Shown here piece by piece: positions 4,402-47,966 of a DNA stretch of 64,000 bases. Position 1 is the stretch's first letter. Each line of letters begins with the position of its first letter. The notes under the pieces were generated by a model that did not search any database, was not told the DNA's origin, and saw only the letters and a list, made by a program, of their open reading frames with translations. This DNA is from Afipia birgiae 34632 (GTDB lineage: Bacteria > Pseudomonadota > Alphaproteobacteria > Rhizobiales > Xanthobacteraceae). The position numbers and the translations under genes were made by a program. Location of the stretch: assembly GCF_000308295.2 (NCBI RefSeq), contig NZ_HG326654.1, forward strand, positions 764,759 through 828,758, read 5' to 3'.

Positions 4402-4545
4402 TCCCTCCCCCTTGTGGGGAGGGTGGCTGGCCCAAATCCTTTTATTTGGGCCAGTCGGGTGGGGGATTTTTTAGAAGCACTGGCGGCGCTGGCCCCCCAC
4501 CCTGACCGGCTATGCCGGTCTTCCCTCCCCACAAGGGGGAGGGAG
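4402..4545. repeat. Inverted pair of two-hairpin CCCTCCCC...GGGTGGGG repeats (REPIN-like)
   Basis: The left copy (about 4402-4466) has hairpin CCCTCCCCC TTGT GGGGAGGG, a second hairpin built on TGGCCCAAA/TTTGGGCCA, then GGGTGGGGG and a T-run. The right copy (about 4491-4545) is the same element in inverse orientation: CCCCCCACCC, hairpin GACCGGC/GCCGGTC, then CCCTCCCC ACAA GGGGGAGGG. A spacer of about 25 bases separates them. Because the flanking genes converge, the pair probably also works as a two-way terminator. Confidence 0.85.
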
Positions 4546-35246: not shown

Positions 35247-36188
35247 ATGGAAATCAGAAATCTGGGGAGCTCCGGCCTTCGTGTGTCCGCCGTCGGCATC
35301 GGCTGCAACAACTTCGGCCAGCGCAGCGATCTCGAAACCTCGCGCAAGATCATTCACAAGGCCATCGATCTCGGTATCACACTGTTCGACACCGCCGACA
35401 TCTATGCCGGGCGCGGCGGCTCGGAAACCGTTCTCGGGCAGGTGCTCGGCGACCGCCGCAAGGACATCGTGCTCGCGACGAAATATTCCAAGGCGATGAG
35501 CGATGACGGCACCAAGCAGGGTGCATCGCGCCGCTACATCATGAATGCGGTGGAAGACAGCCTGCGCCGGCTGAAGACCGACTACATCGATCTCTACCAG
35601 CAGCACGATTTCGATCCGCTGACGCCGATCGAGGAAACGCTGCGTGCGCTGGAAGACCTCATCACCCAGGGCAAGGTGCGCTACATCGGCTGCTCGAATT
35701 TTCCGGCATGGCGCATCGCCGAAGCGCAATTCACCGCGCGCGGCATCAACACCCATGCCTTCGTGTCGTGCCAGGACGAATACAGCCTGATCGTGCGCGG
35801 TATCGAAACGGATCTGCTGCCGGCCGCGCAGGCCTACAATCTCGGACTGTTGCCGTTCTTTCCGCTGGCCAGCAGCCTGCTGACCGGAAAATACAGGCGC
35901 GGCGAGAAACCATCCGCCGACTCACGCTTCGGCAAGGTAGCGTCTCTCGGCGAGCGCTACATGACGGACAAAAACTTCGACATCGTGGCGAAGCTTCAGG
36001 ACTTTGCCAACGCGCATGGCAAGACGATGATCGAACTGGCGTTCTCATGGCTGGCTGCGCGGCCGCAGGTCTCAAGCGTGATCGCCGGCGCATCCAGCGC
36101 CGAACAGATCGAGCAGAACGCCAAGGCCATCAACTGGAAGCTGACGGCGGACGAGATGGCGCAGATCGACGCCATCACCAAGGGCTGA
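35247..36188 (+). CDS. Aldo/keto reductase
   Basis: A 313-residue NADPH-dependent (alpha/beta)8 barrel. The catalytic tetrad is readable: Asp in LFDTADIY (about 48), Tyr 53, Lys in VLATKYS (about 79) and His in LYQQHDFDPLTPIEETL. The C-terminal cofactor loop reads VSSVIAGASSAEQIEQNAKAINWKLTADE. Members reduce aldehydes or ketones; the physiological substrate is unknown. It starts 11 bases after the acyltransferase stop. A copy of its last 39 codons, decayed, lies at 36813-36929. Confidence 0.93.
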   Translation: MEIRNLGSSGLRVSAVGIGCNNFGQRSDLETSRKIIHKAIDLGITLFDTADIYAGRGGSETVLGQVLGDRRKDIVLATKYSKAMSDDGTKQGASRRYIMNAVEDSLRRLKTDYIDLYQQHDFDPLTPIEETLRALEDLITQGKVRYIGCSNFPAWRIAEAQFTARGINTHAFVSCQDEYSLIVRGIETDLLPAAQAYNLGLLPFFPLASSLLTGKYRRGEKPSADSRFGKVASLGERYMTDKNFDIVAKLQDFANAHGKTMIELAFSWLAARPQVSSVIAGASSAEQIEQNAKAINWKLTADEMAQIDAITKG

Positions 36189-36692: not shown

Positions 36693-36727
36693 TTTCGAAG
36701 CGTATCTGGCGGCGATCGGCGCCTTGA

Positions 36728-36812
36728 TCAGACGACCAATCCCTGAATCGCCTTCACAGCACCGCTGTCGGGAAACACGGTTTCGGCGAGCACGCGGTCG
36801 CGCGTATCGAAC
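36728..36812 (-). pseudogene. Fragment of a second DUF1501 gene, C-terminus
   Basis: On the minus strand the fragment reads DTRDRVLAETVFPDSG, AVKAIQGLVV and stop. It aligns with the last 24 residues of the intact DUF1501 gene at 37416 (LGDRVLADAVFPDSGAVR, GVQGLVV), with several substitutions. It has no upstream part. It lies head-to-tail with the aldo/keto reductase fragment at 36813 across a precise join. Confidence 0.85.
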
Positions 36813-36929
36813 GTAATTGCCGGCGCATCCAGCACCGAACAGATCGAGCAGAACGCCAAGGCCATCAACTGGAAGCTGACGGCGGACGAGATGACGCAGA
36901 TCGACGGAATTACGAAGAGTTTGAGTTAA
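36813..36929 (+). pseudogene. Fragment of a second aldo/keto reductase gene, C-terminus
   Basis: On the plus strand this reads VIAGASSTEQIEQNAKAINW, KLTADEMTQIDGITKSLS and stop. It differs from the aldo/keto reductase tail at 35247 by only a few residues (S for A, T for A, G for A, SLS for G). The fragment starts abruptly after the DUF1501 fragment at 36812, so both are scars of one rearrangement. Confidence 0.9.
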
Positions 36930-36951: not shown

Positions 36952-37001
36952 TCCCTCCCCTGAATGGGGAGGGTGGCTGACCGTAGGTCAGCCGGGTGGG
37001 G
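36952..37001. repeat. Two-hairpin repeat left of the DUF559 gene
   Basis: The order is CCCTCCCC TGAAT GGGGAGGG, then hairpin GGCTGACC GTA GGTCAGCC, then GGGTGGGG. The same element, inverted, lies at the other side of the DUF559 gene (37343-37395). Each half is a perfect or near-perfect stem. Confidence 0.88.
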
Positions 37002-37013
37002 TGATCGAGATCG

Positions 37014-37415
37014 ATGCAGAATGCGCGAGCCAGAGAACTCCGAAAGCGGTTGACGCCGCAAGAAGTGAAACTTTGGGTCAAGCTCCGCGATTTAAGGACG
37101 TTGGGTTATCACTTCCGCAGACAAGCACCAATTGGTCCCTTCATCGCCGACTTCGTTTGCTTCAAACACCATTTGATCATTGAAGCAGACGGCGGACAGC
37201 ACGGTATGAATCCGCATATTTTAAGAGACATGCGCCGCAATGATTTTTTGAGATCGCAAGGCTTTCGCGTTCTCAGATTCTGGAATTCTGACATCGATCA
37301 TTATCTTGATGGAGTTGTCGAGACGATTGTTGCTGAGCTAAAGCCCCCACCCCGACCGGCTGACGCCGGTCGACCCTCCCCACAAGGGGGAGGGATAAGA
37401 AAGCCAACCGTGTGA
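37014..37415 (+). CDS. DUF559 endonuclease-like protein flanked by repeats
   Basis: A 133-residue protein of the DUF559/COG2852 group, which has the Vsr/restriction-endonuclease fold. It begins MQNARARELRKRLTPQEVKLWVKLRD, then HFRRQAPIGPFIADFVCFKHHLIIEADGGQH with Asp and Glu at the PD-(D/E)XK-like positions (ADFVC and IEADGGQH), and ends NDFLRSQGFRVLRFWNSDI. From about residue 110 the protein is encoded by the flanking repeat (KPPPRPADAGRPSPQGGG). Its neighbours are inverted copies of a two-hairpin repeat. Many DUF559 genes lie in such surroundings. It could act in DNA repair, phage defence or mobilisation of the repeat; none is shown. Confidence 0.78.
   Translation: MQNARARELRKRLTPQEVKLWVKLRDLRTLGYHFRRQAPIGPFIADFVCFKHHLIIEADGGQHGMNPHILRDMRRNDFLRSQGFRVLRFWNSDIDHYLDGVVETIVAELKPPPRPADAGRPSPQGGGIRKPTV
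37343..37395. repeat. Two-hairpin repeat right of the DUF559 gene (inverse copy)
   Basis: Read on the minus strand it is CCCTCCCCC TTGT GGGGAGGG, then hairpin CGACCGGCG TCA GCCGGTCG, then GGGTGGGGG. It overlaps the 3' end of the DUF559 gene and encodes that protein's Pro/Gly-rich tail. Confidence 0.88.
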
Positions 37416-38663
37416 CTACACAACCAGCCCCTGCACCCCTCTAACAGCACCGCTGTCGGGAAACACCGCATCCGCCAGCACGCGGTCGCCGAGCCCGAGG
37501 TGATCGCGCAGCACGCCCTTGATGACGCCGCGCAGATCGGTGGTCGGCTTGAGATCGCGGCCTTCATAAAGACTGGCGGCTTTCAATCCCGGCCAATCCG
37601 AGATCACGCGTCCGCCGTTGACCGCACCACCCGCAAGCAACGCGACCGTGCCGGTGCCGTGGTCGGTGCCCTCGGTGCCGTTGATCCGCGCGGTGCGGCC
37701 GAACTCGGTGGCGACCACGATCACGGTATCGCGCCAGCGCTCGCCGAGGCCGCTCTCGAATTCCCCCAGCGCGCCGTCGAGGCCAGACAGCAATTGTGCC
37801 AGGCGGCCGACAGGCCCGCCTTCATTGGCGTGGGTGTCCCAGCCGTCGAATGCCAAGGCCGCGATGCGCGGCCCGTCATCGGCCGCCATCAACCGCGCTG
37901 CACCCTTGGCCGCAAGCCGCATCCCGGCCGCGCCGTTCATGCCGGACTTCGGCTTCATGCTATCGTCGCGCGCCGCGATCTTGTCGATCTGCAAGCCCTG
38001 CGACAACGCCGCTGCCAGTGCGGGATCACGATGGTTGTAGAGATTAACCAGCCGCATCGCGGTGTCGTCGGCAGCTTGCGGAATATAGGGCGGTGCCCAG
38101 CCGACCGTCGGAGCGGCGCCGCGCAGCACCAGCGGTGTGGTGGGCCCGACGGCGAGGCCGCTCATCACGCGCTCGCCGCGCGGCAGCGCTTCCAGGGCGC
38201 GGTTGAGCCAGCCGCTTTGCACGCGGCCCGGCCCGCCAAAGCCGCTTTCCAGCACATCCTGCCCGTCGAAATGCGAGCGCTCGCGATATGGCGTCGCCAC
38301 GGCATGGACGACGGCGGCCTTCTTGTCCTTATACATGCGCGAAAATTCCGGCATCGACGGATGCAGCGCGAAAAATGAATCGAGCGCGGTCGCCGCGTGC
38401 GCGCCGTCGAGCGACAGCGCGATCGATCCATGCAGCCCGGCGTAATCGGGATCGCCGACCGGTGCGACGGTGGCAAGACCGTCCAGCGCGCCGCGCAGGA
38501 TAATGGTGACAAAGCGCGGATCGCGGCCATCTTTCGCGCGCACGAATTTCGGCAGGTAGGCCCAGGCCGCAAAGGTCGCCGATCCGAGCAGCAATGCGCG
38601 CCGCGTCAACCCGCGCGCGGTATGGCTTTCGCAGCAATCGGCCGAAATGCTGGACATGCTCAT
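37416..38663 (-). CDS. DUF1501 secreted protein (Tat-exported)
   Basis: A 415-residue protein with a twin-arginine-like leader (RGLTRRALLLGSATFAAWAYLP), so it is probably folded in the cytosol and exported by Tat. The body belongs to DUF1501, a sulfatase-like/alkaline-phosphatase fold group: FVTIILRGALDGLATVAPVGDPDY, the conserved RSHFDGQDVLESG, GWDTHANEG and the C-terminal VVATEFGRTARINGTEGTDHGTGTVALL that carries metal-ligand residues. Its function is unknown. It overlaps by 4 bases (ATGA) the DUF1800 gene upstream, so the two are translationally coupled, as in many genomes. A copy of its last residues is found at 36728. Confidence 0.9.
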   Translation of the reverse strand: MSMSSISADCCESHTARGLTRRALLLGSATFAAWAYLPKFVRAKDGRDPRFVTIILRGALDGLATVAPVGDPDYAGLHGSIALSLDGAHAATALDSFFALHPSMPEFSRMYKDKKAAVVHAVATPYRERSHFDGQDVLESGFGGPGRVQSGWLNRALEALPRGERVMSGLAVGPTTPLVLRGAAPTVGWAPPYIPQAADDTAMRLVNLYNHRDPALAAALSQGLQIDKIAARDDSMKPKSGMNGAAGMRLAAKGAARLMAADDGPRIAALAFDGWDTHANEGGPVGRLAQLLSGLDGALGEFESGLGERWRDTVIVVATEFGRTARINGTEGTDHGTGTVALLAGGAVNGGRVISDWPGLKAASLYEGRDLKPTTDLRGVIKGVLRDHLGLGDRVLADAVFPDSGAVRGVQGLVV

Positions 38664-42714: not shown

Positions 42715-42853
42715 CACCCCACCCGACCGGCCCAAGCTTGGGCCGGTCACCCTCCCCCATTCAGGGGAGGGACAAAAATGCGGCGTTCACAGAAGACCTG
42801 TCTTCTCCCTCCCCCTTGTGGGGAGGGTGGCGCGAAGCGCCGGGTGGGGGTGA
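42715..42853. repeat. Inverted pair of two-hairpin repeats, outward arrangement
   Basis: The left copy (about 42715-42772) starts CACCCCACCC, then hairpin GACCGGCCC AAGC TTGGGCCGGTC and CCCTCCCCCATTCAGGGGAGGG. The right copy (about 42805-42853) is CCCTCCCCCTTGTGGGGAGGG, then GGCGCGAAGCGCC and GGGTGGGGG. Here the GGGTGGGG ends face outward, the reverse of the arrangement at 4402-4545 and around DUF559. It lies between the SCO1 fragment and the alkylsulfatase stop. Confidence 0.87.

Positions 42854-45350: not shown

Positions 45351-47966
<2,616 letters not shown>

Follow-up and report, generated by a model that had tools for sequence, protein, structure and literature searches.

Repeats of the BoxC/PIT/TM type, an intrastrand-triplex class with a G/C-rich motif, have been recorded in more than 260 prokaryotes and occur in Escherichia coli as inverted pairs; the E. 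coli motif folds as a triplex in vitro, and in vivo a DMS footprint did not bear out a stable one (Holder et al. 2015; PMC4666352). In the sections of that report available to us, the repeats are described as abundant and linked to genome instability, and the authors state that their surroundings never yielded a remnant of a transposase or integrase, nor any gene that could move them; a word search of its text returned neither "DUF559" nor "endonuclease" nor "Vsr". REP repeats carry a GTAG or CGTC tag at the foot of the hairpin (PMC3733652). Other repeats of the genera considered here have been described by Di Nocera 2013 (PMC3733652) and Hahn 2016 (PMC5082802), with no enzyme of the DUF559 kind in the available parts of either paper.

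DUF559 is a Pfam family of unknown function. Its E. coli member YcjD had been assigned to the PD-(D/E)XK superfamily by 2005 (PMC1189080), and Caulobacter VsrA, a protein with a DUF559 domain that is reported to be inducible by DNA damage, has been interpreted as probably a repair enzyme of the Vsr type, with TG mismatches proposed (PMC12907096, available in part); the terms "palindrom" and "inverted repeat" are absent from the text of that paper in a word search. The PMC literature searched, as far as its accessible text goes, yielded no published link between DUF559 and triplex repeats. Such a link would explain both the family and the repeats. Based on the analysis of one bracketed DUF559 gene and its relatives, we propose as quite likely that DUF559 is the dedicated nuclease of an autonomous mobile unit with triplex-type ends and that it spreads the dispersed repeats, the cutting and the movement being the steps that we infer.

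A DUF559 gene between matched, inverted ends

The window, that is the whole stretch of 64,000 nucleotides analysed here, contains the unit and its neighbours as follows.

35247–36188, + strand: aldo/keto reductase gene, left of the site
36953–37394, + strand: whole unit, outermost hairpin to outermost hairpin, 442 bp
36953–37001, + strand: left end, with hairpin 1 at 36953–36973, hairpin 2 at 36975–36993 and the tail GGGTGGGG at 36994–37001
37014–37415, + strand: DUF559 (PF04480) gene, 133 aa, Vsr/EDxHD-type nuclease fold, its tail encoded by the right end
37344–37394, − strand: right end, inverted and of the same architecture, with the tail at 37344–37353, hairpin 2 at 37353–37372 and hairpin 1 at 37374–37394
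37416–38663, − strand: DUF1501 gene, right of the site

A preliminary description of this DNA had placed a DUF559 gene between two inverse two-hairpin elements with G-rich ends facing inward, the right copy overlapping the gene and encoding its tail, and the sequence is as described. The gene is assigned to PF04480 with an E value of 6.2e-35 in a Pfam scan, the tails of both ends are directed inward, each end gives a two-hairpin fold (z −4.7 to −5.2; equalled by 0 of 200 shuffles), and the final ~24 codons lie within the right end or just past it. Hairpin 1 has seven exact copies in the window; 100 shuffles gave 0.00 on average. The median length of 118 units measured in the same way as the 442 bp of the window unit is 450 bp, and in 75 of them the DUF559 frame reaches into or beyond the right hairpin. 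To the left of the unit, a fragment of the DUF1501 3′ end (36725–36801, 78% to 37413–37489) is followed by one of the aldo/keto reductase 3′ end (about 36810–36929); the two apparently reflect a tandem duplication of the site and subsequent loss.

How general is this arrangement? Bracketing was scored by aligning the 200 bases upstream of a gene with the reverse complement of the 200 bases downstream, a score of at least 16, a threshold picked after the scores were known, counting as a pass. The window genome has five PF04480 genes: the four canonical ones are bracketed by inverted ends of three stem types, and the divergent fifth has no ends. Across the genus, PF04480 is present in 28 of 29 genomes, with 79 matches that divide into 49 canonical (at least 113 bits), 27 divergent and 3 partial ones. 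An enrichment of inverted repeats around DUF559 genes, which the preliminary description had named as a check, is indeed found: 48 of the 49 canonical genes are bracketed, whereas none of 845 positions drawn at random from these loci is, and the one gene that fails (L064) is located at the edge of a contig. None of the 9 divergent genes scored, out of the genus's 27, passes.

Beyond the genus, PF04480 occurs in 145 of the 398 genomes of a phylum sample. Here 45 of 70 DUF559 loci pass, compared with 4 of 808 control positions; 30 of these loci were taken as output and 40 were hand-picked among the matches listed, one per genome and blind to the flanks, and one misplaced locus on a short contig (L149) figures as a miss in this count and as a 25-bp outlier among the 118 measured units. 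Named loci were represented by the best 80 of 570; after removal of 3 at edges, the test is passed by 60 of 77, or by 59 of 76 once L235, an artefact of N letters, is excluded, against 7 of 1,007 control positions. Those passing include loci from Gastranaerophilales, from SAR202 and Dehalococcoidia (Chloroflexi), and from Nitrospira, Desulfobacteraceae and Rhodopseudomonas; a cyanobacterial locus (L287) and one from Mesorhizobium (L268) are among those failing. Failures amount to 25 of 70 and 17 of 76 in the two wider samples. One named locus is identical to a genus locus (L286 and L051), and further overlap between the samples is possible. The bracketed DUF559 arrangement is thus far more general than one locus, the triplex repeat layout itself being already known.

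The two ends of a unit are more alike than ends taken across loci (median 29.5 versus 11.0; n = 100 loci already past the threshold), and stem sequences vary between DUF559 subfamilies. A Mantel value of 0.16 in the wide set was reached by 0 of 999 permutations; the genus value of 0.49 was discarded as proof, being inflated by shared (orthologous) sites. At a Neisseria gonorrhoeae DUF559 locus (L322), triplex-type repeats stand on both sides in direct order, not inverted. Relatives of DUF559 were found in 3 of 50,697 phage records and 45 of 72,556 plasmid records. The phage count led us to set aside a reading as phage cargo, and a reading as a defence gene was likewise dropped, its sole match being a weak partial one to DpdF.

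Triplex layout of the ends and fold of the enzyme

Reading inward, each end consists of a C arm, a loop, a G arm, either hairpin 2 or 2–3 nt, and a G tail. The tail is the G arm written backwards, with A facing A or T, as in the arm/tail pairs GGGGAGGG/GGGTGGGG, GGGGAGAGG/GGTGAGGGG and GGGGGAAGG/GGGATGGGGG. Of 394 ends, 298 showed recognisable hairpins, 285 of these ends being distinct and 246 distinct with asymmetric arms; in these 246, with the direct register serving as control, the mirror register outscores it in 131, falls below it in 4 and equals it in 111. Perfect mirrors number 120 of the 246, against 43 perfect direct matches, and the remaining 126 mirrors are imperfect. That the tail might stand in for the G arm in pairing with the C arm, which would call for the direct register, was rejected on this comparison (4 versus 131). 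At the window's left end the inward G tail mirrors the G arm of hairpin 1 in 8 of 8 positions, against 6 in the direct register; the right end scores 8 of 8 in the mirror register and 8 in the direct one too, so that taken alone it is not decisive on register.

In a three-block test (pyrimidine, purine, purine, with the third block in antiparallel or mirror register) the DUF559 ends fit. As judged from sequence, then, the ends of DUF559 units are laid out like a purine-motif intrastrand triplex and may well fold accordingly. Many of them have a 2–3 nt loop, within the 1–6 nt definition; in the window ends, 20–21 nt occupied by hairpin 2 separate G arm and tail, outside that definition. The four G runs may alternatively form a G-quadruplex, a reading that does not predict the mirrored spacing.

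The AlphaFold model of the window protein (pLDDT 87.5) matches a putative Neisseria endonuclease (3hrl, E 2.4e-7), I-Bth0305I (E 5.9e-5) and Vsr (1vsr, E 4.7e-3) in Foldseek searches, and I-Bth0305I is also matched by a sequence profile (hmmsearch, E 0.0017). Among 22 aligned sequences of the genus, D46, E57, D59, H63 and D72 are invariant, the first four being the putative catalytic residues. A Pfam scan of the protein gave PF04480 and, below the cut-off, PF18741, and nothing else; a full-length match to the Vsr family is lacking, TIGR00632 covering 24 residues at 19.4 bits against a cut-off of 97.85.

The Vsr-like fold, together with the published view of VsrA as damage inducible and likely Vsr-type (PMC12907096, as far as available) and the co-occurrence of motif and enzyme described below, could speak for host repair: DUF559 would handle mishaps at triplex repeats or TG mismatches and be kept because the repeats are present, the flanking copies regulating or insulating its gene. 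We regard this as rather improbable. Repair gives no account of ends that are matched within units and differ between subfamilies, nor of empty sites and turnover at a single site, and genomes carry several copies, with up to 10 PF04480 matches in one. A role as the nuclease dedicated to a mobile unit would, if correct for DUF559, be a second way to read Vsr-like proteins, Caulobacter VsrA among them.

E. coli K-12 carries both a DUF559 member and triplex repeats, which makes the link testable at the bench. The member, YcjD (b1289), is encoded between sapF and fabI in K-12 and is found in 3,365 of 5,426 complete genomes; in other lineages eefRABCD occupies the place of ycjD (PMC12817139, in its accessible part). 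The YcjD of strain KE47 shares 47% identity with the window protein. Triplex-type repeats lie downstream of ycjD only, i.e., on one side, and a side-by-side reading shows the K-12 repeat adjoining ycjD to be partly deleted relative to strain KE47. The locus looks like a decayed unit.

Occupied sites, empty sites and dispersed repeats

Units and empty sites alternate among close relatives at conserved gene junctions. Across the 29 genomes, the gap between pheS and pheT holds a unit in 8, is empty in 20 and is without a call in 1; at the empty sites the gap is 0, and in the four inspected the stop and start codons overlap. The gap between glyQ and glyS holds a unit in 11, is empty in 17 (1–6 bp) and is without a call in 1, and occupied gaps span 499–566 bp in the 9 measured of 11. 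Two genomes at contig edges, G014 for pheS|pheT and G019 for glyQ|glyS, were scored from positions; of the neighbouring genes, PheS, GlyQ, GlyS, DnaN and TrpA were clear by Pfam, and PheT, RecF and TrpB were taken from partial or weak matches. The trpB|trpA and dnaN|recF gaps hold further units. Residents of the glyQ|glyS gap belong to three DUF559 subfamilies (identity 66–96% within and 45–61% between them), and a single subfamily occupies several sites within one genome, G006 (L059, L066 and L072). The glyQ|glyS units of G018 and G025 are preceded by what is left of a repeat of another type, so that a new unit seems to have landed beside an old one.

These sites bear directly on homing as an explanation. 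A free-standing EDxHD-type endonuclease would cut the empty allele, for instance the glyQ|glyS or pheS|pheT junction, recombination would copy the gene in, and the ends would stall forks or mark borders, the dispersed repeats not being the work of DUF559. The relation of fold and sequence to I-Bth0305I fits this scheme, as do the existence of empty alleles and the occupation of identical conserved junctions across several species. Several subfamilies per site and one subfamily at several sites are unlike one enzyme per target, however, and dispersed repeats that track the enzyme would be left unexplained; we therefore hold homing to be unlikely. A mobile unit that carries its own ends, moving perhaps by transposition and perhaps by homing, is the reading we prefer for these sites.

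At the window site, the DUF1501 neighbour was found in 19 genomes and the reductase end was recognised in 7 of these. Among the seven, the window genome and G018 have the unit, and G005 is empty, the reductase stop and the match to the convergent DUF1501 gene being 6 bp apart. The preliminary description had also raised the matter of empty sites in relatives, and such sites are present at this locus in G005 as well as at the pheS|pheT (20 of 29) and glyQ|glyS (17 of 29) junctions. G008 too has a unit at the window site (L054); G006 and G017 retain a right end, solitary or degenerate, next to a different palindromic pair, and G024 and G011 have other palindromic pairs. In these last four genomes, in the order given (L302, L308, L305 and L309), the pairs look like GTCGTCCCCGCG...CCCA / CGTCATTGCGAG...CCA. 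The gap seems to be a landing place for several repeat families, as read from its occupants. CGTC-type REPs were considered as the same family as the window repeats and rejected, as their sequence differs; pairs of that appearance are the ones that fill the site in G006, G017, G024 and G011.

Three of the 49 canonical genes of the genus have an in-frame stop, and these copies are decaying. One such gene, in a decaying unit of G006 (L072), stands next to a left end with an extra stretch between hairpin 1 and tail. Outside the ends of the 118 units there is no clear excess indicative of a target-site duplication (direct repeats of at least 7 nt in 6.8%, 3.5% expected). Inverted matches of at least 7 nt are in excess at the same positions, 16% versus 4%, and the ends may thus extend a few bases outward. 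Inserts comprise roughly 10 to 60 bp beyond the hairpins that are missing from the empty site, which leaves the borders of the unit undefined.

Ends also occur without the gene, in the window at three places.

4403–4543: dispersed pair of ends without gene, tails inward
42717–42850: dispersed pair of ends, tails outward, with hairpins at 42750–42771 and 42807–42827
45364–45400, + strand: solo end, hairpin plus G tail

In the whole genome of 5.33 Mb there are 48 exact copies of hairpin 1, 30 of them paired at distances below 250 bp (15 pairs). Eight pairs were read: five have their tails inward (105–178 bp between starts) and three outward (56–57 bp). The outward pairs, all in the window genome (L006, L016 and window positions 42717–42850), keep the 56–57 bp spacing with a different inner sequence each time. 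Inside one repeat pair (L012, on contig C1 of the window genome, shortly after 1894121), a loxP-like sequence directly precedes a run of N, which we take to be probably a mate-pair library leftover.

The abundance of these repeats follows the enzyme. With subfamilies and stem types per genome sorted by eye, the four genomes with the window's subfamily hold 48, 48, 31 and 34 copies of the window hairpin, the top four counts, against 0–25 in the 25 others (Mann–Whitney p 8e-4 across the genus, uncorrected for kinship). Hairpins with the CCCTCTCCC stem number 17–51 in the 11 genomes with units of that stem and have a median of 3 in the 18 others (p 5e-5, likewise across the genus and uncorrected for kinship), with G006 (32), G021 (23) and G018 (20) as exceptions. 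Crossed controls in the genus gave p values of 0.049, which is borderline, and 0.21. None of the literature full-text matches listed for the CCCTCTCCC stem deals with bacterial repeats, judging by title.

In the 398-genome survey, the full triplex motif is present in 60 of the 104 genomes with a canonical DUF559 (best E below 1e-20, 104 of the 145) and in 17 of the 294 without. Stratified by GTDB family, the presence test gives an odds ratio of 21 (p 4e-12; 227 genomes in the 17 families having both kinds), with motif presence scored so as to include the units' own ends; the window's own family runs opposite to the trend, with the motif in 6 of 10 genomes with a canonical DUF559 and in 2 of 2 without. 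As the ends of the units themselves contribute to the motif counts, these were examined at thresholds of 5, 10 and 20. At least 10 matches, summed over both strands for a pattern that represents one motif variant, are found in 26 of 104 genomes with a canonical DUF559 and 8 of 294 without (p 1.6e-10, unstratified); since the contrast persists at this level, it does not merely reflect the units' own ends. The motif reaches high strand-summed copy numbers without a canonical DUF559 in G168 (123), G189 (82) and G328 (79), the latter two having weak PF04480 matches.

Dispersal without a gene, as in the 48 exact hairpins and 15 close pairs of the window genome, would be expected if the repeats spread by other means and land beside a dispensable gene, or shield its mRNA as hairpins. 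We consider such a passive role very improbable: the arrangement is absent from all 845 control positions and from the 9 divergent DUF559 genes scored, and co-occurrence holds within families. The suggestion in the preliminary description of a passive gene that tolerates repeat insertions has lost ground in view of the enrichment, the empty sites and the genome-level co-occurrence.

A proposed mobile unit and its relation to known systems

We propose the following model for a mobile unit served by DUF559. In each end, the inward G-rich tail would fold back onto the C-rich/G-rich hairpin and supply the third strand, giving an intrastrand DNA triplex. The nuclease would recognise the folded end on one strand, e.g., at a replication fork or after damage, and nick or cut there, whereupon copying of the unit would begin. 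Acting in trans, the same nuclease could have gene-less pairs of ends copied into new intergenic places. Units often lie in the gaps of conserved operons, where expression is perhaps spared; this placement may arise because the frame crosses the right end and stops near the start of the next gene.

What would such a unit mean? If the model is correct, non-B DNA can form the end of a mobile element, and repeat families served by their own nuclease have more than one origin, RAYT and DUF559 being unrelated enzymes. On the whole it appears probable that the units constitute a widespread class of mobile elements whose ends act as triplexes and whose sole enzyme is the Vsr/EDxHD-type DUF559, with BoxC/PIT/TM repeats as their ends and gene-less offspring.

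DUF559 units resemble DNA transposons and MITEs in the terminal inverted repeats around a gene, and differ from them in wanting a clear target-site duplication (118 units). With I-Bth0305I (3r3p), DUF559 shares the fold of the catalytic domain, a detectable sequence relation and the character of a selfish nuclease gene; I-Bth0305I carries the PDB name "Mobile intron protein", whereas the window gene is framed by ends of triplex layout, with no intron recognised. Vsr and Caulobacter VsrA, the latter with a DUF559 domain (PMC12907096, available in part), are like the window protein in fold; unlike Vsr nucleases, the window gene has an aldo/keto reductase and a DUF1501 gene as neighbours and not a methylase. 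YcjD of E. coli is a DUF559 protein with triplex-type repeats as in the window unit, but on one side only.

The likeness to REP/REPIN repeats and their RAYT (TnpA-REP) lies in the inverted palindromic pairs, the repeat-flanked nuclease gene and the many gene-less pairs. The RAYT enzyme is a tyrosine (Y1) transposase and the DUF559 enzyme is Vsr-like; the ends of DUF559 units have a triplex layout, unlike the repeats of the REP/RAYT system. No GTAG or CGTC tag stands at the hairpin foot of either window end, GTAG being present inside hairpin 2 of the left end and not at its foot. Since neither enzyme nor repeat is common to both, the DUF559 unit is not a member of the REP/RAYT system. The earlier idea of a REP-like system with a different enzyme therefore survives in part: the enrichment and the empty sites agree with it, and the repeats, untagged in the REP manner and of triplex layout, do not.

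Closest in their repeats are BoxC/PIT/TM elements, which share with DUF559 ends the hairpin followed by a G-rich third block in purine-motif register, and which are likewise dispersed, intergenic and partly arranged as inverted pairs. The window ends differ in having a second hairpin inside the second loop, which exceeds the 1–6 nt of the search in PMC4666352 as described in its accessible sections. That paper, in the same sections, reports no mobility gene near the repeats, whereas DUF559 units frame a nuclease gene.
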